A DNA stretch of 64,000 nucleotides from Candidatus Altimarinota bacterium (lineage in GTDB: Bacteria; Patescibacteriota; Gracilibacteria; JAUYGZ01). This document shows positions 33,156 through 58,229 of this stretch, piece after piece. A program made the position numbers and the translations under genes. How positions within the stretch are numbered: position 1 is the stretch's first letter; each line of letters opens with the position of its first letter. Location of the stretch: assembly GCA_029233985.1 (NCBI GenBank), contig JARGOK010000002.1, positions 248,001 through 312,000 on the forward strand. Reading direction: 5' to 3'. The notes under the pieces were generated by a model that was not told the DNA's origin, ran no database searches, and saw only the letters and a program-made list of their open reading frames with translations.

Positions 33156-33632
33156 CTACTTCCGAATCTTCAAATCATCGGTAATAGATTCGTACAAATC
33201 CTTATCCTTCGAAGAAATATATCGAAGCAATCGTCGACGCTTACCGACCATAAGGATCAATCCACGACGGGAATGATTGTCTTTCTTGTGTTCTTTCAAG
33301 TGTTCAGTAAGACTATTGATTCGATCAGTCAAAAGAGCCACTTGAACTTTTGGAGAACCAGTATCTTTATTGTGATCTTGAAATGTTGAAATAACAGCTT
33401 TTTTTCCTTTCTTTACGTATTTCTTAGGAGCAGCTTTCTTCACAACATTCTTTTTCTTTGGTGTAGCAGCCTTCTTTTTCTTCGAAGCAGCTTTTACTGG
33501 AGTTGCTTTCTTAGGAGCAGCTTTTGTAGCAGTTGTCTTCTTAGGCTCTGCTTTTACAGCAGGTGTTTTCTTAGCAGGAGGAGTTTTCTTTGCTGCTTCC
33601 TTCTTCGGAGCAGCTTTCTTAGCAGTTGCCAT
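33156..33632 (-). CDS. rpsO: Ribosomal protein S15 with long Lys/Ala/Pro N-terminal extension
   Basis: 158 residues against the usual ~89. The last ~85 residues are a normal S15 that binds the central domain of 16S rRNA ([56 protein letters not shown]). The first ~73 are almost only Lys, Ala, Pro, Thr and Val in AAPKK/AKKTP-type repeats, like a histone-H1 or AlgP-type tail. This disordered cationic tail probably adds RNA contacts (inference). The frame is continuous from an ATG with no Shine-Dalgarno (TTTGAATATTT before it). First gene of the rpsO-pnp pair. Confidence 0.95.
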
Positions 33633-33727
33633 AAATATTCAAATATAAAAACAAAGCGGAAAGAAAATATCATATTCAGACTCAATTGACAAGAGAACTT
33701 CACAAGGAATAGGCTATAAACACCAAT

Positions 33728-36037
33728 ATTAATGTTCAAAATATCAACTATTACCTCGTCCAACTCAAAACGATACCCCGACCTCTTACTTATGAATCTC
33801 AATATTCAATACCTATCGGGAGCCTCGTAGAAGTCCCCCTCTCCAACAATAGAGCCAACGGAGTGGTCATTGATGAAATTGAAAAACCAAACTTTGAATG
33901 CCTCAAAGTCACGACAACAATCATCTCAGAAGCAGTGACAAAGCAACAACTCGAACTCTGTAAATGGATGAGCGAATACTACTGCACATCTCTTCGAAAT
34001 TGTCTTCAGCTCTTTATCCCAAGTGTGATCTGGAAGAGCAAAATAAAACTCAAATACGAGCAAAATGTTTCACTCAACAACTCTGAACTCCAGACTCCGA
34101 ACTCCAAACTTCCTACAAAAAAACAACAAGAAATAATCGAGTATCTCAAAGAAAACGAAAAAACTCAACTCCCCATTCTCAAAAAACAATTCTCAGCATC
34201 CAGCCTAGCAACGCTCAAAAAAAACGGAATCATCTCTATAAAAGAAGGCGACTTAATCAATCCCGATGCTTCACATATCAGCAAACCCCACCACAACAAA
34301 CCCCTAACCAAAGAACAACAAAGTGTCCTAAAAACAATTCAATCAGCACAAAAAAACACCGCACCTTCTCCAAACTCACAATTCCAAACTCCTCAGTTCC
34401 TGTTACACGGGATCACTGGTTCCGGAAAAACAGAAATCTACCTCCAGCTCATAAAAAAAGCCGTTGAAAAAGATCAGCAGTGCATCCTTCTGGTGCCAGA
34501 AATAGCTCTTACCACGCAAACCATTCAATATTTCAGTGAACATTTTCCAGGTCAGATCAGCATTCTCCACTCCAACCTCTCTGAAGGTCAACGTGTCCAA
34601 GCTTGGCATCGTATTCACCAAGAAAAAACCAAACTCATCCTTGGGTCACGTTCAGCCCTCTTCACTCCTTGGAAAAAATTGGGATTAATCATCATCGACG
34701 AAGAACATGAATGGACCTATAAACAAGAATCAGCTCCTCGCTACCACGCTCGTACTGTCGCAGAATACATCTCACAGATGAAAAGAAAAAACACAGCGCT
34801 TGGAGCTCCTACTCTCCTCCTTGGATCTGCCACACCATCTCTAGAAAGCTACTTCAAAACTCAAAAAACAAAAACTGAAGAGAACCTCCAGACTTCAAAC
34901 TCCGAACTCCGTACTTCACATTCCAAGCTCCTCTCGCTCACCCACCGCGCCAACAACACGGCCCTCCCACCAGTCCATATCATCGACATGCGAGACGAAT
35001 TCAAGAAAAAGAATTTCAATATCCTTTCAGAAGACCTCCACAAAGCAATTCAAGATCGTATAGAAAAAAAAGAACAAACCGTCCTTTTCCTCAACAAACG
35101 GGGATCATCCAGCTCTATCACCTGTCGTGACTGTGGATTTACACCAAAATGTACTAATTGTGATATTTGCTTAACATATCATAAATTTTTAAGAGATTTT
35201 CAAGACGGAGGGCTCGTCTGTCATTACTGTGGGAATTTCCAAAAAAACTTCATCACTTGTCCCGATTGCAAATCATCTGCCATACGTCATATCGGGACAG
35301 GAACACAAAAAGCAGAAGCACAACTCCAAGAACTTTTTCCAAAAGCCCGCATCCTCCGAGCAGACAAAGACACCATGGGAAGTAAATTTGCCTTCGAGAC
35401 TATCTACAACAAGATGAAAAACAACGAAGCCGATATCCTTCTTGGAACACAAATGATCGCCAAAGGACTAGATCTCCCAAATGTCACCCTCACAGGAATC
35501 CTCATCGCGGACATCGGACTCCATATCCCAGACTTCAGAGCAAGTGAACGTGTCTTTCAGCTCCTCACTCAAGTAGCCGGTCGATCAGGGCGACACAAAC
35601 CTGGAGAAGTCATTATCCAAACCTACCAGCCTTTCCACAAAGCCCTCCAATTTGCCAAAAACCATGACTACTTAGGATTTTACGCTCACGAAATACAACA
35701 ACGAGAACTCTTCAATTATCCTCCATATTCTAAAACCATAAAACTCATCTTCGCTGACGAAAACCCAAAAATAGCCGCTGAAGAATCCCTCCGCATATTC
35801 AACAAACTCAACGAACAAACCCACCGTCCTCTTACCTTAGACTTTTCCCAGCCTCTCAAGGTCCCAACAGTCCCTGAAGTCCCCAACATCCCCACCATCT
35901 CCCTCTCTCCCCACTACATCCCTCGTCTTCACAATAAATACATCTGGAATATCTCAATCCAAAGTAATTCTCCAAAAGATGTCATTTCATCTCTGAAACT
36001 CGGCAAAGGCTGGAAAATAGATGTAGATCCTCGCTAA
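33728..36037 (+). CDS. priA: Primosomal replication protein N' (PriA helicase)
   Basis: DEAH-type 3'-5' helicase that reloads the replisome at stalled forks. Motifs: Walker A HGITGSGKTEIYL, DEEHEWTYKQE, the zinc-binding Cys set (CRDCG, CTNCDIC, CHYCG, CPDCKS), LLGTQMIAKGLDLPNV and QVAGRSGR. The first ATG/GTG/TTG in frame is GTG at 33863, but the conserved N-terminal DNA-binding fold (YYLVQLKTIPRPLTYE, YSIPIGSLVEVPLSNNRANG) is encoded upstream of it. The upstream TAG at 33710 leaves only ATA 33716 and ATT 33728 near the proper end. With ATT the product is 769 residues. A TATAAA lies at 33715-33720. Three heptanucleotide-repeat insertions interrupt loops. The stop interlocks with the convergent gene. 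Confidence 0.9.
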   Translation: MNVQNINYYLVQLKTIPRPLTYESQYSIPIGSLVEVPLSNNRANGVVIDEIEKPNFECLKVTTTIISEAVTKQQLELCKWMSEYYCTSLRNCLQLFIPSVIWKSKIKLKYEQNVSLNNSELQTPNSKLPTKKQQEIIEYLKENEKTQLPILKKQFSASSLATLKKNGIISIKEGDLINPDASHISKPHHNKPLTKEQQSVLKTIQSAQKNTAPSPNSQFQTPQFLLHGITGSGKTEIYLQLIKKAVEKDQQCILLVPEIALTTQTIQYFSEHFPGQISILHSNLSEGQRVQAWHRIHQEKTKLILGSRSALFTPWKKLGLIIIDEEHEWTYKQESAPRYHARTVAEYISQMKRKNTALGAPTLLLGSATPSLESYFKTQKTKTEENLQTSNSELRTSHSKLLSLTHRANNTALPPVHIIDMRDEFKKKNFNILSEDLHKAIQDRIEKKEQTVLFLNKRGSSSSITCRDCGFTPKCTNCDICLTYHKFLRDFQDGGLVCHYCGNFQKNFITCPDCKSSAIRHIGTGTQKAEAQLQELFPKARILRADKDTMGSKFAFETIYNKMKNNEADILLGTQMIAKGLDLPNVTLTGILIADIGLHIPDFRASERVFQLLTQVAGRSGRHKPGEVIIQTYQPFHKALQFAKNHDYLGFYAHEIQQRELFNYPPYSKTIKLIFADENPKIAAEESLRIFNKLNEQTHRPLTLDFSQPLKVPTVPEVPNIPTISLSPHYIPRLHNKYIWNISIQSNSPKDVISSLKLGKGWKIDVDPR
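34079..34113 (+). repeat. Heptanucleotide repeat inside priA, copy 1
   Basis: Units GAACTCC, AGACTCC, GAACTCC, AAACTTC in a row. Translated in frame as NSELQTPNSKL, before the winged-helix segment. Confidence 0.8.
34367..34400 (+). repeat. Heptanucleotide repeat inside priA, copy 2
   Basis: Degenerate units of the AAACTCC/AATTCC type, translated as SPNSQFQTPQF immediately before the Walker A strand. Confidence 0.6.
34883..34933 (+). repeat. Heptanucleotide repeat inside priA, copy 3
   Basis: Units of the type GACTTCA, AACTCCG, AACTCCG, TACTTCA, CATTCCA. Translated as LQTSNSELRTSHSKL, in a loop between the helicase lobes. Confidence 0.75.
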
Positions 36038-39678: not shown

Positions 39679-40881
39679 ATGAAATTCTTCATAAAAACCC
39701 TCGGTTGTAAAATGAACTTTCTTGATTCCGCTAGGATCAGTGCCGGACTTCAAAATGCAGGTCACCACCTCAGTGACTCCGAAAAAGATGCTGAGATGAT
39801 TTTTGTGAATTCCTGCACGGTAACTCATCAAGCAGACCGAAAGTCTCGTTACGAAGCTCTTAGAGCTACTAAAAAGGGAAAACAAGTTGCAATATTTGGT
39901 TGCGGACCAAAAGTCGACACCAAAGAATGGAATAAGCAGTTCCCTGATGACCTGGTCTTCGGTAACGACCAAGAACTCTTTGACCATTTTGGACTGACAG
40001 AACATGACATTATCTTCCCAGAAAGCTCTCGAACTCGTCTACCTGTCGCTATCCAAGGAGGTTGTGACAATGTTTGCAGCTTTTGTATCACCACGGTCGC
40101 TCGTGGAGAGCATTTCAATATTCCCCTAGAAGGGATCATCAGACAAATCAATCGAGCAGTAGAACATGGGATCAACGAAATCGTCCTAACAGGAATCAAT
40201 CTCGCCGCATGGGGATCGACAAATTCAAGAACCAAACCCGAAGAAGCAAAATTGGGCGAGCTCCTAACAGAAATTCTCAACCAAACAGATATTCCTAGAG
40301 TAAGAATTTCTTCAATCGGCCCTCAGTTTATTCATGAAGATTTTTACGAGGCATATCAAAATCAACGCATCTGTGATCACCTCCATATGAGTATCCAAAG
40401 TGGGTCACCTGGTGTCTTAGAGCGAATGAATCGTGGTCATGGAGCGCCAGAAATATATGAAATTGTCAAAAGAACCAGAGAAATTCGACCAAACACTGCT
40501 TATTCAGCAGATTTTATCGTTGGATTTCCAGGAGAAACAGAGAAAGAGTTTCAGGAAACTGTAGAAATGATCAAAACTATTAGATTCGCTAAATTACATG
40601 TCTTCCCCTACTCCAAACGAGAAGGAACAGGTGCTGCACGAATGAAAAACCAAGTCCCAGAACAGATCAAAAAGGAACGATCTCAAATCCTCCGAGATCT
40701 CGGTGACAAACTTCGCAAGGAATATTTAGAACACCAAGTGGGAAAAGAACTGGAGTTTCTTGTCGATCTCAAACATCGTGGAATCAGTACAAATTATGTT
40801 TTTGCTAATATGAATAAAAAAGCTCCCACAGGAAGCCTACAAAAAATCGTCCTCAGTGAAGGTATGCTTACCGAGCTCTAA
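39679..40881 (+). CDS. mtaB: tRNA (t6A37) methylthiotransferase MtaB
   Basis: 400 residues. Radical-SAM enzyme that converts t6A37 to ms2t6A37 in ANN-reading tRNAs. N-terminal MTTase domain (FIKTLGCKMNFLDSARI, VNSCTVTHQADRKSR, IFGCGPKV) carries three Cys for the auxiliary cluster. The radical-SAM core has the CxxxCxxC motif CDNVCSFC near residue 124, then TGINLAAWG, MSIQSGSPGVLERMNRGH and DFIVGFPGETEKEFQET. A reduced TRAM-like C-terminus follows. Assigned to MtaB rather than MiaB by TLGCKMN and overall length. The ATG lacks a Shine-Dalgarno. The TAA interlocks with the giant gene's TAG at 40878-40881. Confidence 0.93.
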   Translation: MKFFIKTLGCKMNFLDSARISAGLQNAGHHLSDSEKDAEMIFVNSCTVTHQADRKSRYEALRATKKGKQVAIFGCGPKVDTKEWNKQFPDDLVFGNDQELFDHFGLTEHDIIFPESSRTRLPVAIQGGCDNVCSFCITTVARGEHFNIPLEGIIRQINRAVEHGINEIVLTGINLAAWGSTNSRTKPEEAKLGELLTEILNQTDIPRVRISSIGPQFIHEDFYEAYQNQRICDHLHMSIQSGSPGVLERMNRGHGAPEIYEIVKRTREIRPNTAYSADFIVGFPGETEKEFQETVEMIKTIRFAKLHVFPYSKREGTGAARMKNQVPEQIKKERSQILRDLGDKLRKEYLEHQVGKELEFLVDLKHRGISTNYVFANMNKKAPTGSLQKIVLSEGMLTEL

Positions 40882-43800
40882 ATAGCTGCAGATCCGGTAA
40901 CAATCTGATCAAGATCCAAATCTTTTGACGTCAATTCATCATTGCTTTCCCAAAGTCGAATCACCATCTGAGCGAACCATCTTCGGTCAACTATTTCAGC
41001 TGGGTCAACATACCGAGCATCACCCAAATCATCTACCTCAAGAATCCCTTTATGATACGCATCAACGAAGTACGGCAAATGCCATTCTTCATCTGGAATA
41101 TCTGCAAAAATCGATTCCTGAATATCAAGAGGTTCAATGCCTATTACTCGATACATCATCTTCATGGCCTCCGCCTTATTCACCAGTTGTGCTGGTTTGT
41201 AACTCCCATCAGGATACCCATCGATAAATCCAAGTTGTTTCGCAATCCATACAAAAGGGCTATACCATTCCGTCGTTGGAATATCCAAGAAAGGCCGTTG
41301 AACGACTTTTTCTGGCTCTTCATAGGACATCAGTTTCATCAAAATTTTTAATATCTGAGCTCGATCGATAAACCGCGACGGTGCAAACACATTCGAATTA
41401 TTTACTCCTTCAACAACTCCCAAATCTTTCAAACGCTGAATCTCCCGAAATCCTTCATCTCCTTCTTGAACATCTTCAAATAGCTCAGTATTTTTAAATT
41501 CAAGATCATCCTGTGATTCTTCATTATCATTCCCAAACAAGAAATCAAAGAATCCTTCTGGTTCATCATCTATATTCTCTAGCTCGCTCTGCTTTTCATT
41601 GTCATTTGTTGTTTCATCTATAAATACAGGTGCCACAGATGATCCTCCTCCACCCCCACCAGATCTTGGAACAAATACTGGCTGAGAAGATACAATTTCA
41701 TTCTCGTTTCTCCTTCTTGGGTCAAGGCCTCCTGATAATGCAAAAGAATACGATTGTTGGGGAATAGAAACACTATTTCCAGCTTCATCGGTAAATTCCA
41801 TTTCCAATTGAAAGGTTGAAGCATTAAATCCACTAAGATTCACTCCTTGAAAAGAATACGATCCTAAAGAGACATAACTCGCTCCTGACTCAATACGATT
41901 CACCCCTTGAATCAGGCGATAACTAATATTTCCAGGTTCATCAATATCAAATGCTAACTCAACAGCAGACCGAGCAGAATGAAGTAATCGTTGATTATTA
42001 TTGATCTGAACCAAGCTTGGAGCATTCACACGTGTGTCTTTCTTCACACGATCCAAACCAAGATTCACGACATTCCCCACATCATCCGTAAAGAGAACTT
42101 CAGCCTCTAGTTCTCCATCTGGCAACGAACTCACATCAATATTTCTAATAAGAGTCTCATCATTTATCACCACTGGTATTGATCCAATTTGATTTACAGA
42201 AATACCAAATCTCACAATAAAATCCCCCTCAATTTCATCACTCCCATTCCGAACAGTATAATTCGCAATCCCTTCCTCAGAGCTATTAAAATCCAGGGTC
42301 ACCAATTTCTCACTAGCCTTATTGATTACCACACCATTATTCAAAACCACACCAGTTATTGCTCGAGCCTGTGCGTCTTTCTGAGCAGTAGAAGCAGCAG
42401 TAATGGCAAGGTTTCCAACCTCATCTGTAAAATTCACTGAGACACTTAGCACACCATCTCGAAGCGTTGAGACATCAAGAACTTGCGATCTATTCAGGTC
42501 AGAACCAGACACAAGCACACTCATCACTTGGTCTGTCCCATCACTAATGATCACCTGAGAAGATCCAGACTCCAAAACATTGTAATCAACAGCAACAGTT
42601 GTCTGTTGAGAATTATTAATAGTATTTCCACCGTTCACTACAATATTTGTAGCAGGGTCAACCTGAGTATCCATCTGAATACTTGGACCAACTCCTTGAG
42701 AAATATTTCCTGCGTGATCCTCAAAGGCAAATCGTGAGGTTATTTGTCCATCATCTAATGTCAAAAAAACAGACTGAAAAGTATTATTCAGTATTGGGTC
42801 TAAAGCAGTATTTGGAGAAAGAGGCCCAGCCTGTATATTATATCGAATTTCTGTCGTCCCATCTGAAAAAAAGACAGATGCTACTCCAGCTTCAGGAGCA
42901 TCAAATACTATTGGAACCATCGTCTTCAAAGAACCATTCACCACATTTCCTCCATTAATGACAATATTAGTCAGTCCAAGATTCGTTGCATCACGCCTCC
43001 CTATAGTTCTCTGAGTAACAGCAACATTTCCCAAAGAATCAGTAAAATCAAATGAAATATTCAAAAGATCATCATTGAGAATACTCACATCACCACTAAT
43101 AATTTGAGGAGCAATACTTGTAATTGGATCATTAATAAGAACTTTGTTTTGTGAGTTATTGAGTTCAGAAATAGTAATCACCGTATTTCCTAATTCAGCA
43201 GCAGTGTATGTAATCGAAAAATCTGTCAAACGAGAGGCATTAATTGGTGCATTCCCATTCACGAGAAAATCAGATAATGGCTGAGCTATAGTATCCATTT
43301 CAACACTAGTTGATTGTTCAAGAGCAGTATTCCCAAAAGCATCTGTAAATGTCACACGAAGAAATACATTTCCATCATCAAATTCAGAAAGATCAAAAGT
43401 ATCCAAAACTGATCCAGCCTGACTTACAGAAAGAGTTCTCGTTATCTGATGAGGAGGTTCAGCTTCATCTTCAATGAGAATATTCAATGAGCCAGGTTCA
43501 AAAACAGTATCGATATTCATTTCAACACTGCTCTTTTGAGTCCCGATGATAGGATTTCCTCCATTCAAGAGTAATCCATCTATTTCAGATACTTGGGCAT
43601 CCTTATCGTATACAAAACCAGTAGAATCAAAATCAGTATTTCCATATGCATCACGATGTGAAAATTGGATTAATAATTTTTCATCAGCTAACTGACTCAA
43701 ATCTAAAGGTCCAATTTCAGTAATCATTTGAACTGTATCAATATTTTTTTGACCAGTCACTTCTCCACCACTTTGGTCTTTTACAAGATAATCAACTGTG

Positions 43801-46800
43801 GCTATTTCTTGTACCCCTTCAAACCTGATAAAACTATTTGATTTATTAAGATTATTCACAAATCCAATATTGGATATGGCATCATCACCATCATTCAAAA
43901 AGATTTTTGACGCTCTATGTACAAAAGTGTCTTTTAACTCTGCATCTTGTACTTGTATCGCAAGATTCCCAAAAGAATCCGTAAAATTCACTAAAAGTGT
44001 CAAGTTCCCTTCATTCAAATCAGATTCAAATTGATTATTAATAATTCTAGAGAAATTCGTAAACGAAATTACTTGAGGACCAACCTGTGTAATACTCGCG
44101 TTCCCTAGTACATCATTGCTATTTTCATCAAGAAGGCGGTATGAAATTGCACCTATTTCCTGTATATCAAATGAAAAAGAAATTTCAGGTTGGCTTTGAG
44201 AAGCTCTGGTATAGACACTACCTCCATTAAAAACGAGGTTAGTAGGGGCTATAGCTTCTGTATCCTTATCTACTTCATTCAATGAATCAGGACTCAAATC
44301 TCCTAATTCTCCCTGAAGGAACAAATCAAAGGTGATTTTCCCATCATTATAAGTACTCAAATTCAGCAATTCCACAGTTGCAACTCCAGCAGACACATTC
44401 TTCGTTCCATTCATAAACTGAGTCCCATCCCCTATTGTATAATGAAGAATCCCATCAACATTCACCTCTACTGTAAACGAAGTATTACTCGCAGTATCTG
44501 CATTTATAGCATTCAACAAACCATTCACTTGAAGATTAGATGGAGCAAGTGGAGCTTCTAAAACATCAAATGCGATACTAGTAACATCTGCTACTCCAGG
44601 AGACGATACAACAAACGAATAGGACCCTACAGTACTCAACTGTAGATCTGAAAAAGTCGCCAAACCATTTACCGCGGAGACAGTATCTGTTCCTCCAAAA
44701 ATAACTCCAGCTGAAGGAACAACAGCAATAAGCACATCTGCATCTGTATCGATACGGTTAGCTCCTTGATCCAACAGCTCAACAGAAATATTTGACGTGA
44801 AAACATTTCCCACCAAAACATTTGTTGGATGCTGTACAAAACGAAGAGAGGAAGCTTGATCTGGAAGCAAATCTTGCTCAATAGCTTGTGAAAAAATAGA
44901 GTTTCCAGCCAAATCAGTAAACTGAATAATTGTCCTGAGCACACTATCAGTTTCAAAACGAAAACGTGAAATATCTGTATCAGAACAAGTATGAATTCCA
45001 GCATTAATATTCTCTAATGTACACGTCACGTCAGACTCAAAACCACCCCTATATATATTTTGAAAAGAAACCACTGCTCTACCAGGTTCAGAAACTTCAA
45101 AAAGAGTATCAAACGCTCCTGCATTTGTAGGGGTTATCGCTGTATCTCCATTAATTACAATATTTGTTGGAACATCAATAAGAGTATCCTTTAATACCGT
45201 CAACACTAGCTGCTGGCTATTCGAACCATTCCCATCAAGAAGCTCAAAAGAGGCTTGAATCTGCCCATCATCAAACCCAATAAAATTAAAATTAGAGAAA
45301 GTATTTGTTCCTACGGTCACTCCAGGATTTGAATTCATTACAGGAAGAGGGTTTTGTCCAACAGGACCTGAAAACGTATACAACAAAACTCCATCCACTG
45401 CAGAATCAATTGAAAATGAAGAATTGAGTACATTATCAGCATTGATAGCATTCACAACACCATTCATAACAAAATTTGTAGGAGTAGGCAGAATATCTCG
45501 AACGAAAAAACTCGGGCTAATAGCATCCACCAAATCTGCTGAAGTCACTTTAAGCTGATAGGTTCCAGAAGTCGTAATCTGTAGATCATCGAAATCAGCA
45601 GTTCCCAATGAAGATGTAAGCAAAGTCGTACCGCTAAGAGATACGCCTGAAGGGTTTCCCTCAAAACCTATAGCAAGTGGGAAATCTTGGTTTTGGACGA
45701 GAGCATTTATTTCATCTAAAACTGATACAGAAATATTTGTAAGAGGAGTATTTCGAGAACCAGATGGCACACCGTTAAAAGAAAGTCGCAGCGGAATAGG
45801 GTCTCGATTTTTCAAACTCAATTGGTACTTCGCTACAAAATACTCCACTTCTTGGGACGAATCTGCAGATCGAACAATTTGTCCTGTTTGATCAAAATTA
45901 AAGATTGTCTGAGTATCATGAGACATTCGACCCGCATAGGCAAAATCATCATTTGCAAAAGCATCAATGTCCGTTGCCTCAAAACCCACTTCCATCTTAC
46001 TCCATGCAAACACTCCATTTTTATCGTAGCGAAATAAAACAGGACCCAATCCATTTTCTGTCTTGATGAGAGGATCAGTAAACGAAATCTTGCTATTAGA
46101 TCGTGCAAGCCCAAGGATACTGTCATCGCTAAGAGATGATAGCGCATGAACAAAAACAGCATTTTGACCATCAAAATCACCTATTTGCTGAGACCAGAGT
46201 ATTTGACCATTAGTCTTTTCATACCTCGTAAGTCTTGCCAAAGACGTATCTTCTCTGTTGAACACAACTATTGAATCATCACTCAAAAGAGTCATATCTA
46301 CCTGCGAATTGAAAACAGGAAAATCCTGCGACCATACAATTTGATCCTGAGCATTAAACCGAGCTAAAAACCCATGATAAGTATTTAAATCAGGTGATGT
46401 ATAGCTATCAGAGCCCAAAGATATGGTGCCAGCAAACTTTCCCAAAAGCGAATATCCTCCATCGCTCAGAACAATTAACCGAACACCATCTGATACTGCA
46501 TTAGCACCTCCGACATTAAATCCATTCAAAGGAGAAAAATCTGAAGCATATCTAATAATATATGCATTACCTCCAGGCAAAGTAGTATTTGCCGAACCAA
46601 TAGAAGTCAAACCACCAAATGTACCATTACCTGTATTGCCTTCAAGTCTCCCAGTAATAATAATTGCATTATCACTAAATACGTTCATATCTCCCACATC
46701 AATACCGATAGATGGAATCAATTGTGCAACTTGGTTAAATTGTGAAGTCGCTGGATCAACAGTAAATAATTGGAATGCTGATTTTCCACTTCCTAAAATA

Positions 46801-49800
46801 TATCCACCGGTCGTCAAAAGCTGTCCATTGCTCATTAAAGCCATTCTAGGAAATGAATTTGAGCTTTGGAATGGAAGGGAGAAAAGTGAGTCATCATCTG
46901 CACCATACCCAACAATGAAATTCGTATTTACACCACTAGAACTTAATCGAAGAGGACTAGGCAAATGAGGAATATCAGTAATCCCAGTAAATCGTCCTGA
47001 AACAAAATAGCTTCCATCTGACCTGGTCAAAACTTGGGAAGGAATGAGATTCGCTCCATTTGTATTCGAAGAATCTGAAACATTTACAGTTTGTGCATTC
47101 GTCACATAAACATTAAAAGCATTGGTATTTGTTGTATTCAATCCTGGAGAAGATACTTCAAACTGATATCCATCCCCCACCACATCTACCATCACATTTG
47201 AAAACGTTGCTATTCCATTCACTGCAGTTGTAGTAAATGGACCAGTAGTTGCTCCATGAGGGTTCAAACGAAAAGACAAAGTCACATCATTATTGGCCGT
47301 AGAAACGAGCTGGTTTTGAGCATCTCGTATTTCAACGCTAATAGGAGGATCAATAATTTTTTCAGCTAAAACAACAAGAGGATTTTGCGTTACTTGGAGC
47401 TGAGTAGCAGAGGCTGTTGGTACACCGTTCAATGAATATCGTGCAATAAAACCTTCACCACTAGCAGATGTCGAGAGTGCTTGCTCTGTAGCCTCATTTT
47501 CATCAAAAAGAGAATTACCTCCTACGTCACCCGCAATGACAAAGCCATTATTTATTTTTCTAACTCCATGAATCAAGGTGTCTCCAGGACTTGTAATATG
47601 TTTCACCCAGTCTAATGTATTATCCATTCTAAAATGAGCCATAAAAATCTCTCGGGGTTGACCAAGAATTGTTAATTCAGTATTTGGAACCAAAATAGAC
47701 CCAAAAGATGCTGAAGGAGTATTGTATGAACCAACCACCAATGCATCATCTCCATATAGTGACGTGATATGTAGGTCAAAGAAGCTACCAGATTGAGAAA
47801 TATTATTCACGGATACTAAAGAACCACTTCCATCATATCGTGCAAAATAAGCACCCGTTGCAAAAAAACTGGAACCATCAAATAAACTCGAGCCAGAGGA
47901 AGTCCCAGTTGTCAAAATCATGTCTGAACTCACTACATCTATATCCTTAGCAAAAACTGCACCACCATCACCATCATCAGTTTGCCAAATCACTTCCCCA
48001 TCTTTTGTAAACCGAACGAGTGCAGCATTATGATTTGTTTGAGACGGAAAAGTAATAGATTGAGAAGTAGTATCTACAAAAGAGAGCTGTAAAAATGATG
48101 TAGAAAACACAAAGTCATCATTTGAAAAAGAAGAAATAGCATCATAATCATTTCCAGTAATGATGGAACCTGACAGTGGAATTTTCCACAAAGTTGAAGA
48201 GTTTGCAGCAAATCGCTGTAAAAAGTAATCTCCATCAGCACCATATAAAAGCACACTTCCATCACTTAAGGCTTCTACATCTATACCGATACCACCAGGC
48301 GATGAGTTAATTGGCATAGCCCAATCCAAATCTCCATTTGGAAGATATTTTGCAAGAAAACCATGAATAGTTGAGGCAGTACCAGGCACCGACAAGCTCA
48401 CGGTATTATTAACACTCACATCCTGACCCAATCGCATTGGTGAATTAAAATGCCCGGTTACATAAACCGTTTTATCAGTATGTAAAGCCACATCAAGTCC
48501 AAGATTATTATTTCCACCTTGATCAGAAATCCTTACCCATTCGAGCTGTTGGTTTGAATCATATAAAGCTACAAAAAATACAACATTATTTGTAGGAGTC
48601 GTTGAAGCTCCATTTCCAAAAATCGTTTCATTGCCTCCAAAGAATCCTGTAATAGCCGTTGTCCCATCAGGAAGGCTATCCATCCCTTTAACAGCTACAT
48701 TGCCTCCAGACTGGGTCATGGTTTGGTGAAGTGTTGAAAGGACTGGTAAATGCCTCACAGAAAAAGCTTCACTATCTACACTCGATAAAGAATTGGCATT
48801 CGCCTCAAACACATACCCCTCACCTACTTGATCCAGCTGAAGATTACTAAAGGTCGCCACACCATTCACAGCCTGAACTGTTTGCGGAGTAAATGAGGCA
48901 GAACCCGGGTTTGTTTTGAGAGAAAGGGTCACTTGAGTAGAAGACAAACCAACTCTCGAGCCACGAAAATCTTGAACCTCAACTTGAATATCTGGGGATA
49001 TTTGCTTTCCAAGAAGAGTATCTTGAGGTTGTTGAATAAAAGCCAACTTCGTTGGGTTTCCTCCTTGAAGAGGAATTGGACCAAATTGAGCAAGAAAGGT
49101 ACCATTGCTCTGATTATTTATCGAAGATTTTTGTAGTCCTTGCTGATCAAATCCATACTCAAAATCTGGAGCATAATCACCAAGAACAAAAATTCTATGA
49201 TCTTCAGATACAACCAATCCTGTCATATCATCACCAAAATTTGCCCCCATCTTATGAGCCCAATTAAATACTCCAGCAGAAGAATACTGAGCGATAAATA
49301 AATCTCGAAAAGGGTTTGAAGAAACAAACTCTAAAGTGTTCGTATTTTCACCAAAAAATGCTCGATAAGTATAGTCTCCACCAATCAAGACATTTCCATC
49401 TTCTAATACTTCTACTTCATTTACGATGTTAAAAGAGTTTCCAATACTCGCGTCTCCACTGACCAAACGAACCCAGCTAAACTGACCATCATTCGCTTCA
49501 AATCGAGCCAAAAACCCATCTTCAAGTCCAACAGAACTAATGGTCTGGTCATTCAGTTCATTATTACCAAAATGAGCCATACCTCTAATTGGACCAGTCA
49601 AATACAGTCCACCATCAGGACTTCCAGCAATATCTAAAGCCTTAAAATTAGTAGTCCCAAAATTATTATTTGCTATAGATGTAGCCCAAACAAAATCTCC
49701 AGACATTGTATATTGAGCCAAGAAGAGATCTCTTTGTCCTTCCAATGCTAAAGTGACTGCGCTTGCTCCTGACCCAAAAAGAAAAGAAGAACTATCAAAA

Positions 49801-52800
49801 AATCCAGCTATTACAATGTTTCCTTGAGGGAGTACTTCTACATCTACTTCAAATTCTGCATCAGTTCCACCAGCACTCTTCACCCACTGAAGAGTTCCAT
49901 CGCGATTGTATCGAGCTAAAAAGGCGTCTTCAGAAGAGTTATTTGTATTGAGAGTTGTCTCATTCGCTTCATTTTGCCCAAATATTGCCGACCCAATAAA
50001 TGAACCTGAAACGACAAAACCTCCATCACTGAGAGCTTCGACTGCATCACAAGAATCTGAACCAGAAGAAACGATTCGTTTAAACCAGTCAAAATCACCA
50101 TTTGATTGATACCGTATCAGAAAACAATCAGAAGAATTCACTGCACCAGAACTCACCGTTATGGGTTGAGCTATTTCTGGAGCAAAAGTTACTGTATCTG
50201 AAAACTGTCCAACTGCCACCACACTTCCATCTGGAAAAAGAGAAACACCCAAACCTGTTGCAGCATTTGTTGATCCATCAGTGGTTCTTACCCATAAAAG
50301 ATTATGTTGAGCATCATACTTTGAGATATAGGCATTGATATTTGAAAGGTTTGAAGAAACCGTTTGCATTTCCGGAGTTCCAGCATCAAAAACAGCATTA
50401 ATAAAATCACCTACTTGTGCACTTGTCCCATCTGAAAGCACATCTAGATCTACAGAGAGTCTAGTATCAAGAGATTCAGAACTATCAGCATATGGTGGTA
50501 CGTAATATATCCTAAAAGGATCACTGTCTACACTCGTCAGCCCATTAGAACTTGCTTCTATCACATATCCTGCAGAAGTATTTTCTAATACAAGATCATC
50601 AAATACTGCCACTCCATTTACAGCAGGTGAAGAAAGTGTTCCCATCAGTGTTGAAGACGTCGGGTTTGTGGATAAAGTGAGGGTTATTGTATTAGTTGCA
50701 CTCGTCACTCTATTCCCTTGAGAATCTTGTATTTCTACTGAAACACTCGGAAATATTGTTCTATATTGGGAGCTATTCGTTGGTTCTTGAACAAATGCTA
50801 ACTGCACAGGACCACCACTAAGAGAATCTTGAAGAGTATAGGCAGCAACATAAGCTTCCAATGATCCATTTGTACTGGTAATAGAAGTTTCCTCAGGAGT
50901 ACCAGGTGAAAACACAAGATTTGAAAAAGGCATATGACCACCAATATATACCGTACTTTCATCAGTCGAAAGAGTGACCGAGCTCACATCATCTGATGAA
51001 GTACCCCCAGCATTTTGTACCCACAAAGCATCGAATTGTTTCCCAAATTGACCAACAAAAACATCTGGGGCAGCACTGACAGAACTAAGATCATAAGATC
51101 CGTCTGCATGAGGAAAAGACATTTGAGGGGTGAAAGTTCCCGTCAGAAGAAAAGAATCATCCGAACGAACAACAAGATCTTTCACTGAGCTCTGACGAGA
51201 AACACCTGAAGCAAGTAAAAGTTTTTCTTGAAGAAGTGTTCCACTGGACGAAAAGCGTTGCAGGTTTATCTGAGAAAGACCTGATGAAGAAGTATTTCCT
51301 GCTACCACAACATCTCCATTTGAAAACACTCCTACAGACTGAGGTCCAAAGTTTTCACTTTTTTGAGTATAATCATCCAAAGACTGAGCAAAGCGAAGGG
51401 TTCCATCAGCATTATAATGAGCTAAAAATCCTGTACCAGGTGTAGAAAGAGTTGTCTCAGCAGCTTCGTTTGTTCCAAAGACAGAACTCGGTGGATAATT
51501 CCCCACCACATAAAATGTGCCATCCGGAGCAAGAGTCAATCGAGGAAAAATATCCAATCGAGTAAAACCACCTCCAGGAGGAGCAGTTGTAGGCGTTTCA
51601 ATATGCTTTACCCATACCACAGATCCATCATTCAAAAACCGAGCCAAAGTAATTTGCCCTTGAACCGCTCCTCGATTACTCACCGTTATTCCATCAATTG
51701 TTATACTCAACGCAAGATTTTGAGCAACAGCAATATATCCATCACTTGTTGCTATCACATCGGTAAAAATATCATCAATCGCTCCTCCATCTGGATATGT
51801 TTTGGTATACACCATGTTTCCGGTATCTCTACTCAATTTTGCTATCATGAGACCCGAAGGAATCCCAGAACGACCGCCAAGACCAACCACAACAATACTC
51901 CCATCACTCAAATAAGCCATGGCCCGTCCTTCATCAGGAAACTGAGATACGCCGTTACTATTGATCGTATCCAACCAGCTTATTTCATGATTTGAAGAAT
52001 ATCGAGACACAAATCCATCTCCACCACCAGAACTAATATCTATGGATTGTCGCGCAATTCTAGCTGGATCTGTATCTCCCCAAATCCCATTATTAAAAAA
52101 ATTCCCAGATGCCAAAAAACCACCAGTCAAATCAGTTATAACATCTTCGATACGTAATAAAGAACCCGCTTGATTTGCTTTGAGATGCTCTACAAATTGA
52201 AGCTGTGAAGAGACTTGAGAAATTGAAAACACATCAGTATTTACAGTTGGAAACCCATTCGTACCCACCTGAAGAACATAGCCTTGTCCAACATCTGAAA
52301 GATACCATTCATCAAAAACAGCCAGCCCATCAACAGCATTTACACTTACCTCCCCCTTCAAAGTCACACCTAAAGCTGGAACAGCCAAAGAGAGCGTCAC
52401 AGTATCAGAAAAACTTGTCACTCGTTGCCCTTGAGCATCATTCACAGATACATGGAGAGCTTGCTGCGGAAGAGCATTTATAAATCCATCAATTGGCTGA
52501 TTCACCAAAGCTAACTGACTTGCCGGTAATGCAAATTTCAAACCATACTCGGCTAAAAACAAAGATTTTTCTGTGCTTTGTGAACTCAAGTCAATCGATT
52601 GAGCATTATGAAGATCAAGATCCAAACCATTAGTAAATGTTCCAGCAATAAAGAAAGAATCTTGGTCTGTAATAGACACATCATAAGCCCTATTCAGTCC
52701 TGGACTAGTCATTTGCTTGGCCCATTGAAAATTCAAATCTTGGTCATAAAAAGCAACAAAAGCATCCTCAGTTCCATTTGGAGTCAAGGTTTGTGACTGA

Positions 52801-53975
52801 TTTCCTGATCCAAACAACAACTGAGATCCCAAGTATCCACTCACTAAAAATGAATCATCAGAAAACACATCCACACCATGAGCACCATCAATTCCTCGAG
52901 GACTCGAACCACTATTCGTGATAATTTCATTTTTCGATATCACCCCAGAAGGAGTAATTCGTCCGATATATACATCAGATGAAATATCAACAGCTGTAGA
53001 AGCAACCAATACAATATCTCCATTCGACAAAAGATCCATATCAATAAAATGCGAAACAACAGACAAACCAGATATTGGAATAACAAATTCTTGAGCACCA
53101 GATACTCCATTATACTTTGCTAAAAACACTCCTGAACCAGCAGGAGATCCAGGACCAAAAAAGAGGCCACCACTAAAAGTTGCAGCAACATACACATCTC
53201 CTTGAGTATCAATCAAAACATCCTTGCATCCCGACGTGGTTAAAAACCCTTCAGCATTATTAACCCACTTCGTGAGAACTTGAGAAGATGCATTTAAACC
53301 AAGACGGAAAACCATAAAGGTAGAAGATGAATTGCCTTTATTTGAAACCGTAGAACCAAACGAAAGACTATCTGAATTCTGTGTACCACAGACCACAAAA
53401 TCATTATCAGCAAATGAATCAACATCATTCAATTGATCACCTCCATTGGAAATATTTGATGAGAACTGTTTCACAGAAACACCATTTGGATCATAAATAT
53501 GGACATATGCCCGGGTCGCAAAAGAGTTCTGATTATCAGCTGACAATCTCCCAGTCAAAATAATATTTCCATTGGGAAGCACTTCAACACCCGCTCCAAC
53601 ATCTAAATGTACTGTTCCGCCATCAATAACTTTCCACCATAGAAGAGTTTTTTGAGGGGAAAATCGAGCAACAAAGGCATCAGTATCACTTGAAGGCGGA
53701 ATAGATACACCAGACCCAATGCTAGGAGTACCTTTATAAAATCCTGACATCACCACTCCTCCATCAGGGTATGAATCCATATCTAAAACAGTGACTTCTT
53801 CATTCGCACCACTATTCCCGTTTGGAATCTCAGTTTGAACTGCGTTCACAAAATCTGTTCCAATCGACATGGCTTGTTGAGATTGTCCAGTATGCATCCA
53901 CCATGAAGACAACCCAATCATCCAAATGAAAAAAACTCCCAACGCACCGATACGGATTTCTTTCTTATCCCACAT
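40878..53975 (-). CDS. Giant 4365-residue SLH-anchored repeat protein
   Basis: Signal anchor 1-38 (IRIGALGVFFIWMIGLSSWW). Residues ~60-2820 are five modules of ~550: each a string of SBBP/propeller-like repeats (ALPDGSVVVAGQFS, FLARYNRDGTLQWVKS) followed by an Ig-like domain (LAFVQEPTNS...VSVEIQDSQGNRVTSATNT, GVAVFDDL) at ~485, ~1050, ~1635, ~2190 and ~2725, with a sixth Ig at ~3035. Residues ~2830-4090 hold about eleven ~110-residue repeats opening TNIVINGG or similar and containing LSDGxLxxxVxFTDxxGN. A Gly5/Ser hinge and acidic linker (~4095-4160) lead to three SLH domains (~4165-4345). Exported and tethered to the wall by its C-terminus, it could reach far from the cell. ATG at 53975; a GTG lies two codons upstream. 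Confidence 0.9.
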   Translation of the reverse strand: MWDKKEIRIGALGVFFIWMIGLSSWWMHTGQSQQAMSIGTDFVNAVQTEIPNGNSGANEEVTVLDMDSYPDGGVVMSGFYKGTPSIGSGVSIPPSSDTDAFVARFSPQKTLLWWKVIDGGTVHLDVGAGVEVLPNGNIILTGRLSADNQNSFATRAYVHIYDPNGVSVKQFSSNISNGGDQLNDVDSFADNDFVVCGTQNSDSLSFGSTVSNKGNSSSTFMVFRLGLNASSQVLTKWVNNAEGFLTTSGCKDVLIDTQGDVYVAATFSGGLFFGPGSPAGSGVFLAKYNGVSGAQEFVIPISGLSVVSHFIDMDLLSNGDIVLVASTAVDISSDVYIGRITPSGVISKNEIITNSGSSPRGIDGAHGVDVFSDDSFLVSGYLGSQLLFGSGNQSQTLTPNGTEDAFVAFYDQDLNFQWAKQMTSPGLNRAYDVSITDQDSFFIAGTFTNGLDLDLHNAQSIDLSSQSTEKSLFLAEYGLKFALPASQLALVNQPIDGFINALPQQALHVSVNDAQGQRVTSFSDTVTLSLAVPALGVTLKGEVSVNAVDGLAVFDEWYLSDVGQGYVLQVGTNGFPTVNTDVFSISQVSSQLQFVEHLKANQAGSLLRIEDVITDLTGGFLASGNFFNNGIWGDTDPARIARQSIDISSGGGDGFVSRYSSNHEISWLDTINSNGVSQFPDEGRAMAYLSDGSIVVVGLGGRSGIPSGLMIAKLSRDTGNMVYTKTYPDGGAIDDIFTDVIATSDGYIAVAQNLALSITIDGITVSNRGAVQGQITLARFLNDGSVVWVKHIETPTTAPPGGGFTRLDIFPRLTLAPDGTFYVVGNYPPSSVFGTNEAAETTLSTPGTGFLAHYNADGTLRFAQSLDDYTQKSENFGPQSVGVFSNGDVVVAGNTSSSGLSQINLQRFSSSGTLLQEKLLLASGVSRQSSVKDLVVRSDDSFLLTGTFTPQMSFPHADGSYDLSSVSAAPDVFVGQFGKQFDALWVQNAGGTSSDDVSSVTLSTDESTVYIGGHMPFSNLVFSPGTPEETSITSTNGSLEAYVAAYTLQDSLSGGPVQLAFVQEPTNSSQYRTIFPSVSVEIQDSQGNRVTSATNTITLTLSTNPTSSTLMGTLSSPAVNGVAVFDDLVLENTSAGYVIEASSNGLTSVDSDPFRIYYVPPYADSSESLDTRLSVDLDVLSDGTSAQVGDFINAVFDAGTPEMQTVSSNLSNINAYISKYDAQHNLLWVRTTDGSTNAATGLGVSLFPDGSVVAVGQFSDTVTFAPEIAQPITVSSGAVNSSDCFLIRYQSNGDFDWFKRIVSSGSDSCDAVEALSDGGFVVSGSFIGSAIFGQNEANETTLNTNNSSEDAFLARYNRDGTLQWVKSAGGTDAEFEVDVEVLPQGNIVIAGFFDSSSFLFGSGASAVTLALEGQRDLFLAQYTMSGDFVWATSIANNNFGTTNFKALDIAGSPDGGLYLTGPIRGMAHFGNNELNDQTISSVGLEDGFLARFEANDGQFSWVRLVSGDASIGNSFNIVNEVEVLEDGNVLIGGDYTYRAFFGENTNTLEFVSSNPFRDLFIAQYSSAGVFNWAHKMGANFGDDMTGLVVSEDHRIFVLGDYAPDFEYGFDQQGLQKSSINNQSNGTFLAQFGPIPLQGGNPTKLAFIQQPQDTLLGKQISPDIQVEVQDFRGSRVGLSSTQVTLSLKTNPGSASFTPQTVQAVNGVATFSNLQLDQVGEGYVFEANANSLSSVDSEAFSVRHLPVLSTLHQTMTQSGGNVAVKGMDSLPDGTTAITGFFGGNETIFGNGASTTPTNNVVFFVALYDSNQQLEWVRISDQGGNNNLGLDVALHTDKTVYVTGHFNSPMRLGQDVSVNNTVSLSVPGTASTIHGFLAKYLPNGDLDWAMPINSSPGGIGIDVEALSDGSVLLYGADGDYFLQRFAANSSTLWKIPLSGSIITGNDYDAISSFSNDDFVFSTSFLQLSFVDTTSQSITFPSQTNHNAALVRFTKDGEVIWQTDDGDGGAVFAKDIDVVSSDMILTTGTSSGSSLFDGSSFFATGAYFARYDGSGSLVSVNNISQSGSFFDLHITSLYGDDALVVGSYNTPSASFGSILVPNTELTILGQPREIFMAHFRMDNTLDWVKHITSPGDTLIHGVRKINNGFVIAGDVGGNSLFDENEATEQALSTSASGEGFIARYSLNGVPTASATQLQVTQNPLVVLAEKIIDPPISVEIRDAQNQLVSTANNDVTLSFRLNPHGATTGPFTTTAVNGIATFSNVMVDVVGDGYQFEVSSPGLNTTNTNAFNVYVTNAQTVNVSDSSNTNGANLIPSQVLTRSDGSYFVSGRFTGITDIPHLPSPLRLSSSGVNTNFIVGYGADDDSLFSLPFQSSNSFPRMALMSNGQLLTTGGYILGSGKSAFQLFTVDPATSQFNQVAQLIPSIGIDVGDMNVFSDNAIIITGRLEGNTGNGTFGGLTSIGSANTTLPGGNAYIIRYASDFSPLNGFNVGGANAVSDGVRLIVLSDGGYSLLGKFAGTISLGSDSYTSPDLNTYHGFLARFNAQDQIVWSQDFPVFNSQVDMTLLSDDSIVVFNREDTSLARLTRYEKTNGQILWSQQIGDFDGQNAVFVHALSSLSDDSILGLARSNSKISFTDPLIKTENGLGPVLFRYDKNGVFAWSKMEVGFEATDIDAFANDDFAYAGRMSHDTQTIFNFDQTGQIVRSADSSQEVEYFVAKYQLSLKNRDPIPLRLSFNGVPSGSRNTPLTNISVSVLDEINALVQNQDFPLAIGFEGNPSGVSLSGTTLLTSSLGTADFDDLQITTSGTYQLKVTSADLVDAISPSFFVRDILPTPTNFVMNGVVNAINADNVLNSSFSIDSAVDGVLLYTFSGPVGQNPLPVMNSNPGVTVGTNTFSNFNFIGFDDGQIQASFELLDGNGSNSQQLVLTVLKDTLIDVPTNIVINGDTAITPTNAGAFDTLFEVSEPGRAVVSFQNIYRGGFESDVTCTLENINAGIHTCSDTDISRFRFETDSVLRTIIQFTDLAGNSIFSQAIEQDLLPDQASSLRFVQHPTNVLVGNVFTSNISVELLDQGANRIDTDADVLIAVVPSAGVIFGGTDTVSAVNGLATFSDLQLSTVGSYSFVVSSPGVADVTSIAFDVLEAPLAPSNLQVNGLLNAINADTASNTSFTVEVNVDGILHYTIGDGTQFMNGTKNVSAGVATVELLNLSTYNDGKITFDLFLQGELGDLSPDSLNEVDKDTEAIAPTNLVFNGGSVYTRASQSQPEISFSFDIQEIGAISYRLLDENSNDVLGNASITQVGPQVISFTNFSRIINNQFESDLNEGNLTLLVNFTDSFGNLAIQVQDAELKDTFVHRASKIFLNDGDDAISNIGFVNNLNKSNSFIRFEGVQEIATVDYLVKDQSGGEVTGQKNIDTVQMITEIGPLDLSQLADEKLLIQFSHRDAYGNTDFDSTGFVYDKDAQVSEIDGLLLNGGNPIIGTQKSSVEMNIDTVFEPGSLNILIEDEAEPPHQITRTLSVSQAGSVLDTFDLSEFDDGNVFLRVTFTDAFGNTALEQSTSVEMDTIAQPLSDFLVNGNAPINASRLTDFSITYTAAELGNTVITISELNNSQNKVLINDPITSIAPQIISGDVSILNDDLLNISFDFTDSLGNVAVTQRTIGRRDATNLGLTNIVINGGNVVNGSLKTMVPIVFDAPEAGVASVFFSDGTTEIRYNIQAGPLSPNTALDPILNNTFQSVFLTLDDGQITSRFAFEDHAGNISQGVGPSIQMDTQVDPATNIVVNGGNTINNSQQTTVAVDYNVLESGSSQVIISDGTDQVMSVLVSGSDLNRSQVLDVSTLRDGVLSVSVNFTDEVGNLAITAASTAQKDAQARAITGVVLNNGVVINKASEKLVTLDFNSSEEGIANYTVRNGSDEIEGDFIVRFGISVNQIGSIPVVINDETLIRNIDVSSLPDGELEAEVLFTDDVGNVVNLGLDRVKKDTRVNAPSLVQINNNQRLLHSARSAVELAFDIDEPGNISYRLIQGVNRIESGASYVSLGSYSFQGVNLSGFNASTFQLEMEFTDEAGNSVSIPQQSYSFALSGGLDPRRRNENEIVSSQPVFVPRSGGGGGGSSVAPVFIDETTNDNEKQSELENIDDEPEGFFDFLFGNDNEESQDDLEFKNTELFEDVQEGDEGFREIQRLKDLGVVEGVNNSNVFAPSRFIDRAQILKILMKLMSYEEPEKVVQRPFLDIPTTEWYSPFVWIAKQLGFIDGYPDGSYKPAQLVNKAEAMKMMYRVIGIEPLDIQESIFADIPDEEWHLPYFVDAYHKGILEVDDLGDARYVDPAEIVDRRWFAQMVIRLWESNDELTSKDLDLDQIVTGSAAI

Positions 53976-54004
53976 AATCACATCAAATGGTCTTTATTAA
54001 GCCA

Positions 54005-56972: not shown

Positions 56973-57575
56973 CTATATTCGATATTCCACATCCTCTATC
57001 AAATGATTCATCTTCTTCCTTTTCGTCATCAAATATTTCATCCCTCTTTCAGACTGAGCCTTTACCACATGCTCCACCCTCACCACTTCCAATCCCTGAT
57101 CGACAAGTGACTCCACCTTCCTCGGATTATTTGTCATGAGTTGAAGTGAGTTCACTCCTACATCCTTGAGCATGTCAGCTGCCAGTTCATATTCTCTCAA
57201 ATCAACTCCCTCACCAATTTTTTCATCAGCCTCCACCGTATCCATCCCTTGACGTTGAAGTTCGTAAGCCTTGATTTTATGTGTCAAACCAAGCCCTCGT
57301 GCCTCTTGATCCAAATACACAATCAACCCACCTTGCTCCGAAACTTTCTTCATCGCTTGGTGGAGCTGAGACCGACAATCACAATAAACAGAAGCAAAAA
57401 TATCACCTGTCATACAAGAAGAATGAATACGAACCAAAGGAACCAAATCACCCCACTCTTTTTTTAGCACCACATGCTCTTTCCCACTTTCCAACTCCTT
57501 ATAAACAAGTATCTCAAACTCACCAAACTCCGTCTCAATGACGCTCACTGCCATTCTCTCTATTGATCCACTCAT
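56973..57575 (-). CDS. ribA: GTP cyclohydrolase II
   Basis: 200 residues, the stand-alone form not fused to RibB. Opens GTP to start riboflavin synthesis. The zinc ligands lie in SSCMTGDIFASVYCDCRSQL (three Cys). YLDQEARGLGLTHKIKAYEL holds the catalytic Asp/Arg region, and LMTNNPRKV the substrate site. The ATG has an A/T-only upstream region. Located between ribB (48 bp upstream) and ribD. Confidence 0.95.
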   Translation of the reverse strand: MSGSIERMAVSVIETEFGEFEILVYKELESGKEHVVLKKEWGDLVPLVRIHSSCMTGDIFASVYCDCRSQLHQAMKKVSEQGGLIVYLDQEARGLGLTHKIKAYELQRQGMDTVEADEKIGEGVDLREYELAADMLKDVGVNSLQLMTNNPRKVESLVDQGLEVVRVEHVVKAQSERGMKYLMTKRKKMNHLIEDVEYRI

Positions 57576-57610
57576 AAATATTTGATAATTCTGAAAATTA
57601 AGCTTTCCTT

Positions 57611-57638
57611 TACTCCAAACTCCTTACTCCATACTTCC
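57611..57638. repeat. Heptanucleotide repeat over the ribB stop codon
   Basis: Plus-strand units TACTCCA, AACTCCT, TACTCCA, TACTTCC. The last residues (SME) and the TAA of ribB are read from this array. Confidence 0.75.
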
Positions 57639-58229
57639 AACTAACGCTTCAATCGTAATCATCTTCAAGCCATGCTTCTTCTTGAACGCAAATAAGTCAT
57701 CTCTCCTCATCATTTCCCCATCCTCACGAATAATCTCACACATCACCCCAACAGATTTCAGACCAGCTCGCTTGAGGAGCTCAATAGACCCTTCTGTATG
57801 GCCTTGACGCTCTGCCAACCCTTTCGGGTGAGCAATTACGGGAAATATATGTCCTGGACATACAAAATGACTTTCCAAGTACAGTTCATCAGCTAATGCC
57901 TGGATAGTCTTTGATCGGTCAGGTGCAGATATTCCTGTCTCAATACCATCTCTGAGGTCACAAGACACCGTAAATTTACAATGCATTTTCTCTTCATTTC
58001 GACGCACCATCAGCGGGAAACTCAATTTCATTGCTCGGTGTTCATCCATTGGAACACAAACAAGACCACGAGCATGCGTAATCATAAAATTCACATCCTC
58101 TGGACGACAAAACTCAGCCGCCATAATCAAATCTCCTTCATTTTCTCGATCTTCAGAATCCAAAACAATCAACATCTTGCCTGCTTTCAAATCCTCTAGC
58201 GCACTTTCTATCGAATCAAACATATCCAT
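57624..58229 (-). CDS. ribB: 3,4-dihydroxy-2-butanone 4-phosphate synthase
   Basis: 201 residues. Converts ribulose 5-phosphate to the four-carbon unit of riboflavin. The acidic metal-binding loop DSEDRENEGDLIMAAEF, THARGLVCVPM, the HCKFTVSCD-like region (MHCKFTVSCDLRDGIETGIS) and GHIFPVIAHPKGLAERQGHT with the catalytic His are present. A single-domain RibB of normal length. Third gene of the operon, 8 bp after ribH. Its C-terminus ends within a heptanucleotide repeat array. Confidence 0.95.
   Translation of the reverse strand: MDMFDSIESALEDLKAGKMLIVLDSEDRENEGDLIMAAEFCRPEDVNFMITHARGLVCVPMDEHRAMKLSFPLMVRRNEEKMHCKFTVSCDLRDGIETGISAPDRSKTIQALADELYLESHFVCPGHIFPVIAHPKGLAERQGHTEGSIELLKRAGLKSVGVMCEIIREDGEMMRRDDLFAFKKKHGLKMITIEALVGSME

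Follow-up and report, generated by a model that had tools for sequence, protein, structure and literature searches.

Why does a gene for PriA, the replication restart helicase, carry tandem runs of a 7-base unit at three places in its reading frame, and do these runs belong to the protein or to the DNA? The gene lies in the window analyzed here, a 64,000-nucleotide stretch (G000:C5:248001-312000) of a 1.66-Mb genome, G000, which consists of five contigs and was studied through genome-wide pattern searches and selected stretches. A preliminary description of the locus had reported STRR-type heptamer repeats inserted in frame at three priA sites and spreading inside this gene.

Heptamer arrays occupy three loops of PriA

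The host open reading frame (33863..36037, + strand) matches TIGR00595 (E=1.2e-166) and PriA chains in the PDB (E to 7.5e-91). The helicase motifs and the Zn-ribbon Cys pairs are invariant in a 38-sequence alignment, and the AlphaFold2 model of the window PriA has a mean pLDDT of 86. The closest named relatives are from JAUYGZ and JAUYKR 'bacterium' MAGs, whose PriA proteins are identical to those of G001 and G002, the other two genera sampled from this family; MAGs of Patescibacteria, Peregrinibacteria, Peribacteria, and Gracilibacteria are next in line. The winged-helix region, retained in the window PriA, is absent from the G001 and G002 proteins (L061, L062) and from PriA of several other class members. 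The open frame also extends upstream of the GTG at 33863 to ~33713 and encodes a recognisable PriA N-terminus (NVQNINYYLVQLKTIPRPLTYESQY), with no ATG, GTG, or TTG start in this upstream portion (33713-33862). Judging from the sequence, translation may begin at an ATT or ATA codon, or there may be a frame change relative to the ATG at 33732.

All three arrays are on the coding strand, at the places where the preliminary description had put them. The first (34078..34112, +; CAACTCT GAACTCC AGACTCC GAACTCC AAACTTC) has five units, encodes NNSELQTPNSKLP, and lies in the linker joining the 3'-DNA-binding domain to the winged helix, where the model shows a coil ahead of helix 86-97. The second, also of five units (34365..34399, +; CTTCTCC AAACTCA CAATTCC AAACTCC TCAGTTC), encodes PSPNSQFQTPQF directly ahead of the Walker A strand and is modeled as coil with a pLDDT of ~75-77; a purer array, read as LTPNSELRTS, is present at this site in G001 priA. 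The third, of seven units (34883..34931, +; AACCTCC AGACTTC AAACTCC GAACTCC GTACTTC ACATTCC AAGCTCC), encodes NLQTSNSELRTSHSKLL downstream of helicase motif III. This site holds residues 342-351, which have a pLDDT below 50 and form the least confident segment of that half of the model. Overall, the three segments are mostly coil.

Comparison with 35 more distant relatives revealed net insertions at two of these sites: the site 2 loop has 30 residues vs a median of 22, and the site 3 loop has 36 vs a median of 20. The loop preceding motif III is likewise longer, at 26 residues (42 in G002) vs 19. At site 1, the array substitutes for a variable linker whose length is not above that in related PriA proteins. 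The earlier claim of in-frame insertion thus holds for sites 2 and 3, while site 1 is a replaced linker. The segments are not conserved in distant PriA proteins, in keeping with their description as repeats. With regard to phase-variable contingency loci, where a change in unit number switches gene expression, the priA arrays are degenerate and all sampled priA copies are in frame. The idea that units in threes preserve the frame does not fit arrays of 5, 5, and 7 units; the frame is kept by the net length.

The heptamer is a feature of the DNA

We examined whether the arrays exceed chance. In 1000 codon-order shuffles of priA, three arrays of such strength never occurred together; 925 shuffles contained none and seven contained two. 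Synonymous shuffles, however, reached the real score in 69/1000 cases at site 1, 203/1000 at site 2, and 26/1000 at site 3. Within priA, most of the DNA match thus follows from the peptide itself, and by this measure priA alone is a weak proof of constraint at the DNA level. Decisive support comes from outside the gene: because copies also occur between genes and antisense to them, the heptamer is a DNA-level feature. When the genome was searched for the heptamer as the preliminary description had suggested, AACTCCNAACTCCNAACTCC with up to 3 mismatches gave 82 matches in G000, vs 6 for a reversed-pattern control. We therefore regard the heptamer arrays in priA as confirmed. That the C-rich codons of low-complexity, T/S/P/N-rich loops merely resemble heptamers would account for the synonymous shuffles, given how much of the match follows from the peptide, but this reading is refuted by the intergenic and antisense copies, by the 82 vs 6 matches, and by the absence of the heptamer from most other class and phylum genomes, and we consider it extremely improbable.

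Genome-wide, G000 contains ~39 strong arrays, of which 18 are sense in open reading frames, 4 are antisense, and 17 are intergenic or at the ends of reading frames. With naive ORF calls, 22/39 are inside reading frames, so the family is not mainly intergenic, although array density per base is ~four- to eight-fold greater outside genes. Spreading is therefore not specific to priA as first described; the repeat is present there, but it is genome- and family-wide and most copies lie elsewhere. Both the tandem arrangement of degenerate 7-bp units and the many dispersed copies are those of a heptameric simple-sequence repeat. In-frame arrays were found in uvrC at three sites (ILTPNSELPTG, EKSKLPAPNSKL, and NDSELQTTDSEQ), argS (EFKTQNSLLLTPNSS), fmt (FTPKSELQTPNSP), pth (TELTTPDSKLL), and tsaE (QIKTPNSKLKTL), and further sense arrays in genes for a penicillin-binding protein, a sortase, and a glycosyltransferase. 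A fourth array in the window (57610..57644, +) is at the boundary of the DHBP synthase (57624-58229, -) and GTP cyclohydrolase II (56973-57575, -) genes, antisense to both. The window arrays span 35-49 bp without a stable stem, and we found no flanks common to several G000 arrays.

The window contains other features of note. The S15 gene (33156-33632, -) encodes a ~75-residue Lys/Ala/Pro-rich, histone H1-like N-terminal extension, which matches Pfam HC2 with E=2e-4, below the HC2 cut-off. Apart from an S-layer homology domain close to the C-terminal end, a 4367-aa open reading frame (40878-53981, -) has hardly any Pfam matches. Positions 59109-59140 form a pure (AAG)10.7 trinucleotide array.

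Arrays of units without a leading T are open in every frame

Since 7 equals 1 modulo 3, an array passes through all phases and yields the same heptapeptide cycle in every frame, NSELRTP-like in one direction and GVRSSEF-like in the other. Arrays of A-, C-, or G-AACTCC are open in all six frames. Addition of TAACTCC breaks this openness, and stops appear only with T as first base, in one third of units. In G000, T occupies the first position in 28/59 units between genes vs 9/70 in sense coding arrays. About half of all heptamers have the same open-frame property, so it permits the spread of the repeat but does not explain it.

Sites and unit numbers turn over among genera

The other two genera carry the heptamer as well, with 33 matches in G001 and 64 in G002 at up to 1 mismatch. 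The strong arrays sampled (39 in G000, 41 in G001, and 26 in G002) include sense and antisense copies in genes as well as intergenic ones. More broadly, the heptamer is absent in 132/145 class genomes, recurring in part of another family, f10, and sporadically elsewhere, and a perfect three-unit match occurs in only 3/192 phylum-wide genomes, the window genome included. In IMG/VR, 67 stretches of viral contigs also have a perfect three-unit AACTCCN array (L226-L292). Separately, the reversed control pattern (CCTCAAN units) was matched in G282, G045, G120, and G142, a sign that further Patescibacteria genomes may have their own heptamer arrays. Our literature search turned up no account of heptamer or tandem repeats in Peregrinibacteria.

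Where the three genera share an array-bearing protein loop, the arrays differ in unit number and can even have opposite orientation. At priA site 3, all three have arrays, in loops of 36, 38, and 23 residues; site 2 has arrays in G000 and G001. Comparison with close relatives thus placed G001 and G002 arrays at shared priA loops, site 1 again showing no net insertion. Immediately ahead of motif III, G002 priA contains an antisense array (ELGVGSSELGVRSSEFGVGSLEL), with a weaker one in G001. Arrays are present in uvrC of G000 and G002 and not in that of G001, and the argS array is limited to G000 among the three. A radical-SAM protein has an antisense array at the same position in all three genera. 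At one orthologous site, 5 units in G001 correspond to 11 in G002, and such variation in unit number between relatives is again that of a heptameric simple-sequence repeat.

Retention of priA site 3 and of the radical-SAM site in all three genera, along with the location of array loops near active motifs, could indicate that the encoded peptides are functional linkers under selection in their host proteins. The peptide sequence, its length, and the coding strand nevertheless vary by genus (GVRSSEF-type vs NSELRTP-type), segments are missing in relatives, and copies also occur between genes. Given these observations, we view selected linkers as very unlikely.

Arrays are oriented with respect to strand composition

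The AACTCC strand of the arrays is the G-poor strand in 34/39 cases in G000, 36/41 in G001, and 23/26 in G002 (93/106 in total), and in all three genera this preference is independent of gene direction. In G000, 21/21 arrays on the left arm are + and 15/18 on the right arm are -, where the arms were inferred from dnaA at C3:159 kb with the end of C3 assumed to join the start of C5. The G-poor strand already has a 1.7-2.9-fold excess of hexamers of the same base composition, and the orientation bias is ~7:1 for arrays vs 2.4-3.7:1 for single hexamers. Base-composition skew may thus be a sufficient cause of the polarity, and slippage from skewed seeds might explain why it is stronger in arrays. 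The polarity is an observation and does not prove a mechanism.

The strand bias in three genera, whichever the gene direction, and the arm-wise orientation in G000 would also be expected if the arrays were selected DNA signals for recombination, replication, or chromosome orientation, or formed two-tetrad G-quadruplexes on the GGAGTTN strand, in which case the polarity would be functional. G-rich heptamers of Xanthomonas and Nostoc do form G-quadruplexes in vitro (PMC4692102). The unit here has only two adjacent G residues, however, and GGAGTTN could form two tetrads at most. Furthermore, composition alone produces a strand excess of hexamers, there are just ~40 degenerate arrays per genome with uneven placement, only 29/83 units in the G000 coding arrays are perfect, and sites turn over between genera. 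A selected signal therefore appears unlikely.

Palindromes accompany some arrays

REP elements have a GTAG/GGAG foot, which the GGAG of the heptamer G-strand resembles. This resemblance, and an array polarity that follows GC skew and, in G000, the position relative to dnaA, raise the question of whether mobile-element machinery moves or seeds the arrays, for example a Y1 (RAYT-type) transposase that works with REP palindromes on lagging-strand ssDNA. Intergenic G001 arrays do alternate with palindromes, and palindromes interrupt some G002 arrays. On the other hand, 281 kb of array-bearing G000 sequence is free of such palindromes, and in G000 and G002 palindromes are no commoner near arrays than at random. 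The search for Y1_Tnp gave one match in G000 and none in G001 or G002, whereas heptamer-free genomes have it. REP/RAYT elements are thus not supported as a general cause, and we judge an origin through such machinery to be improbable.

The palindromes themselves merit description. REP-like GTAGAGACGCATAGCTATGCGTCTGTAC and GTAGAGACGTTTTGGCAAAACGTCTGTAC are interleaved with intergenic arrays at five G001 loci (L293, L296, L306, L307, and L316), and GTAGAGACG palindromes occur only beside some G001 arrays; the arrays themselves are non-palindromic. Flanks shared by arrays within G001 and within G002 include palindromes. CCCGCCGTGGCGGG occurs inside arrays, also in reading frames, where it is read as PPRRAG (G002 L320 1766-1846 and L330 697-710; G001 L297 489-586), and a related insert, CCTGCCTGCCGGTAGGCAGG, is read as GLPAGRQ in G002 uvrC (L176). 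In the window, CCTGCC..GGCAGG-type palindromes are not above chance.

A proposed origin by slippage and template switching

The explanation we favor, and consider reasonably probable, is a lineage-specific, dispersed, degenerate heptameric simple-sequence repeat that changes by slippage, probably with occasional template switching, and is nearly neutral. Under this proposal, (N)AACTCC arrays on the G-poor strand would arise and change length through replication slippage, with arrays probably inverted via occasional template switching, and the array would be nearly neutral DNA rather than a PriA domain. Within genes, arrays could survive because each unit shifts the frame by one base, so that all frames cycle through one hydrophilic heptapeptide; purifying selection would then retain only surface-loop arrays whose net length is 3n. 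The analysis establishes the family and its distribution, the in-frame placement in loops, the orthologous sites that differ in unit number, and the open frames; the generating process and the near-neutrality of the arrays are inferred.

Slippage is supported by the pure long arrays of G002 (TAACTCC ~10 times), which it predicts. Adjacent identical units are clearly rarer within genes only in G002. Purer intergenic arrays were considered as a general sign of slippage and set aside, as this holds for G002 only, owing to a few long arrays. With regard to template switching, G002 and G100 contain tight inverted array pairs with hairpins (z -4.7 to -6.6), including one within a G002 reading frame; head-to-head arrays with short spacers and long hairpins lie at G002 L327 2020-2125 and at G100 L338 1935-2030 and L342 1913-2012. 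In G002 priA, a four-unit block (AAACTCC GAACTCC TCACTCC CAACTCC) is inverted ~70 bases from its twin. These pairs and this block suggest template switching, though the block may be a chance occurrence because sharing of at least three units between arrays is not above that of shuffled units, a result that also led us to reject copying of multi-unit blocks between arrays.

Slippage alone does not account for one heptamer at so many loci. One could propose a dedicated replication-coupled insertion process, acting on the lagging strand and either templated or directed by single strands, through which numerous loci, among them core genes, gain oriented GGAGTTN units and proteins are supplied with new stop-free loops. 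We regard such a process as a doubtful prospect; if it existed, the supply of stop-free loops to proteins would be continual. In these reduced Patescibacteria genomes, a bacterial simple-sequence repeat acts at scale on the loops of core proteins for replication, repair, and translation, with arrays on either strand and at sites common to several genera. Because the 7-base unit reads alike in all frames, there is a simple route from non-coding repeat DNA to tolerated protein. These genera also offer a comparative test bed for the origin of dispersed heptamers, which was left open for the cyanobacterial and Xanthomonas ones.

Comparison with known repeat families

Heptameric repeats have been described as STRR in filamentous cyanobacteria (Calothrix, Nostoc) and as the G-rich GGGNATC and GGGGA(C/T)T of Xanthomonas and Nostoc (PMC4692102). 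Like these, the present arrays consist of degenerate 7-base tandem units, are dispersed in few to many copies, and vary between relatives, which supports the original likening of the three priA loops to STRR-type repeats. They differ in their unit, GGAGTTN, and in phylum. The known heptamers are reported to be mainly intergenic and under-represented in coding regions (PMC4692102), whereas about half of the strong arrays here are in reading frames, many of them for conserved proteins. A text search of PMC4692102 found no mention of replication-strand polarity. Cyanobacterial STRR proper are not matched and are set apart by description, since the host here belongs to Patescibacteria (nearest records Peregrinibacteria/Gracilibacteria) and the core is AACTCC.

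Direct repeats of the TAACTGA heptamer in Beggiatoaceae, cyanobacteria, and Bacteroidetes (PMC4679880) are similar in their dispersed arrays, their patchy distribution, and their occasional in-frame translation, as the heptapeptide LSVISYQ (PMC4679880). Forward TAACTGA repeats contain stops in all frames, however, and their coding copies are largely confined to the ends of proteins or to hypothetical ones (PMC4679880), whereas the present heptamer can be open in both orientations and its arrays are inside core proteins.

Rickettsia palindromic elements (RPE) are found in frame within conserved proteins, and the single enzyme tested stayed active (PMC2229807). They share with the heptamer the tolerance of a repeat family in frame in many conserved proteins, and they too occur between genes (PMC2229807). 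RPE are single palindromic units of 105-146 bp with terminal inverted repeats (PMC2229807), whereas the present arrays are short, non-palindromic, and tandem; the in-frame position in conserved proteins is thus that of an RPE, but the ~100-150 bp palindromic unit is lacking. REP/RAYT systems are likewise short dispersed repeats, and REP-like palindromes lie amid the G001 heptamers. Unlike REP, the heptamer is without a palindrome, none lie near the G000 arrays, and the search for a Y1 transposase found none in G001 or G002 and one in G000, so that it departs from REP both in the palindromic unit with its foot and in the associated transposase. Overall, the repeat is best read as a new lineage-specific, STRR-like heptameric simple-sequence repeat that is unusually gene-invading and is not a member of the STRR, RPE, or REP families.
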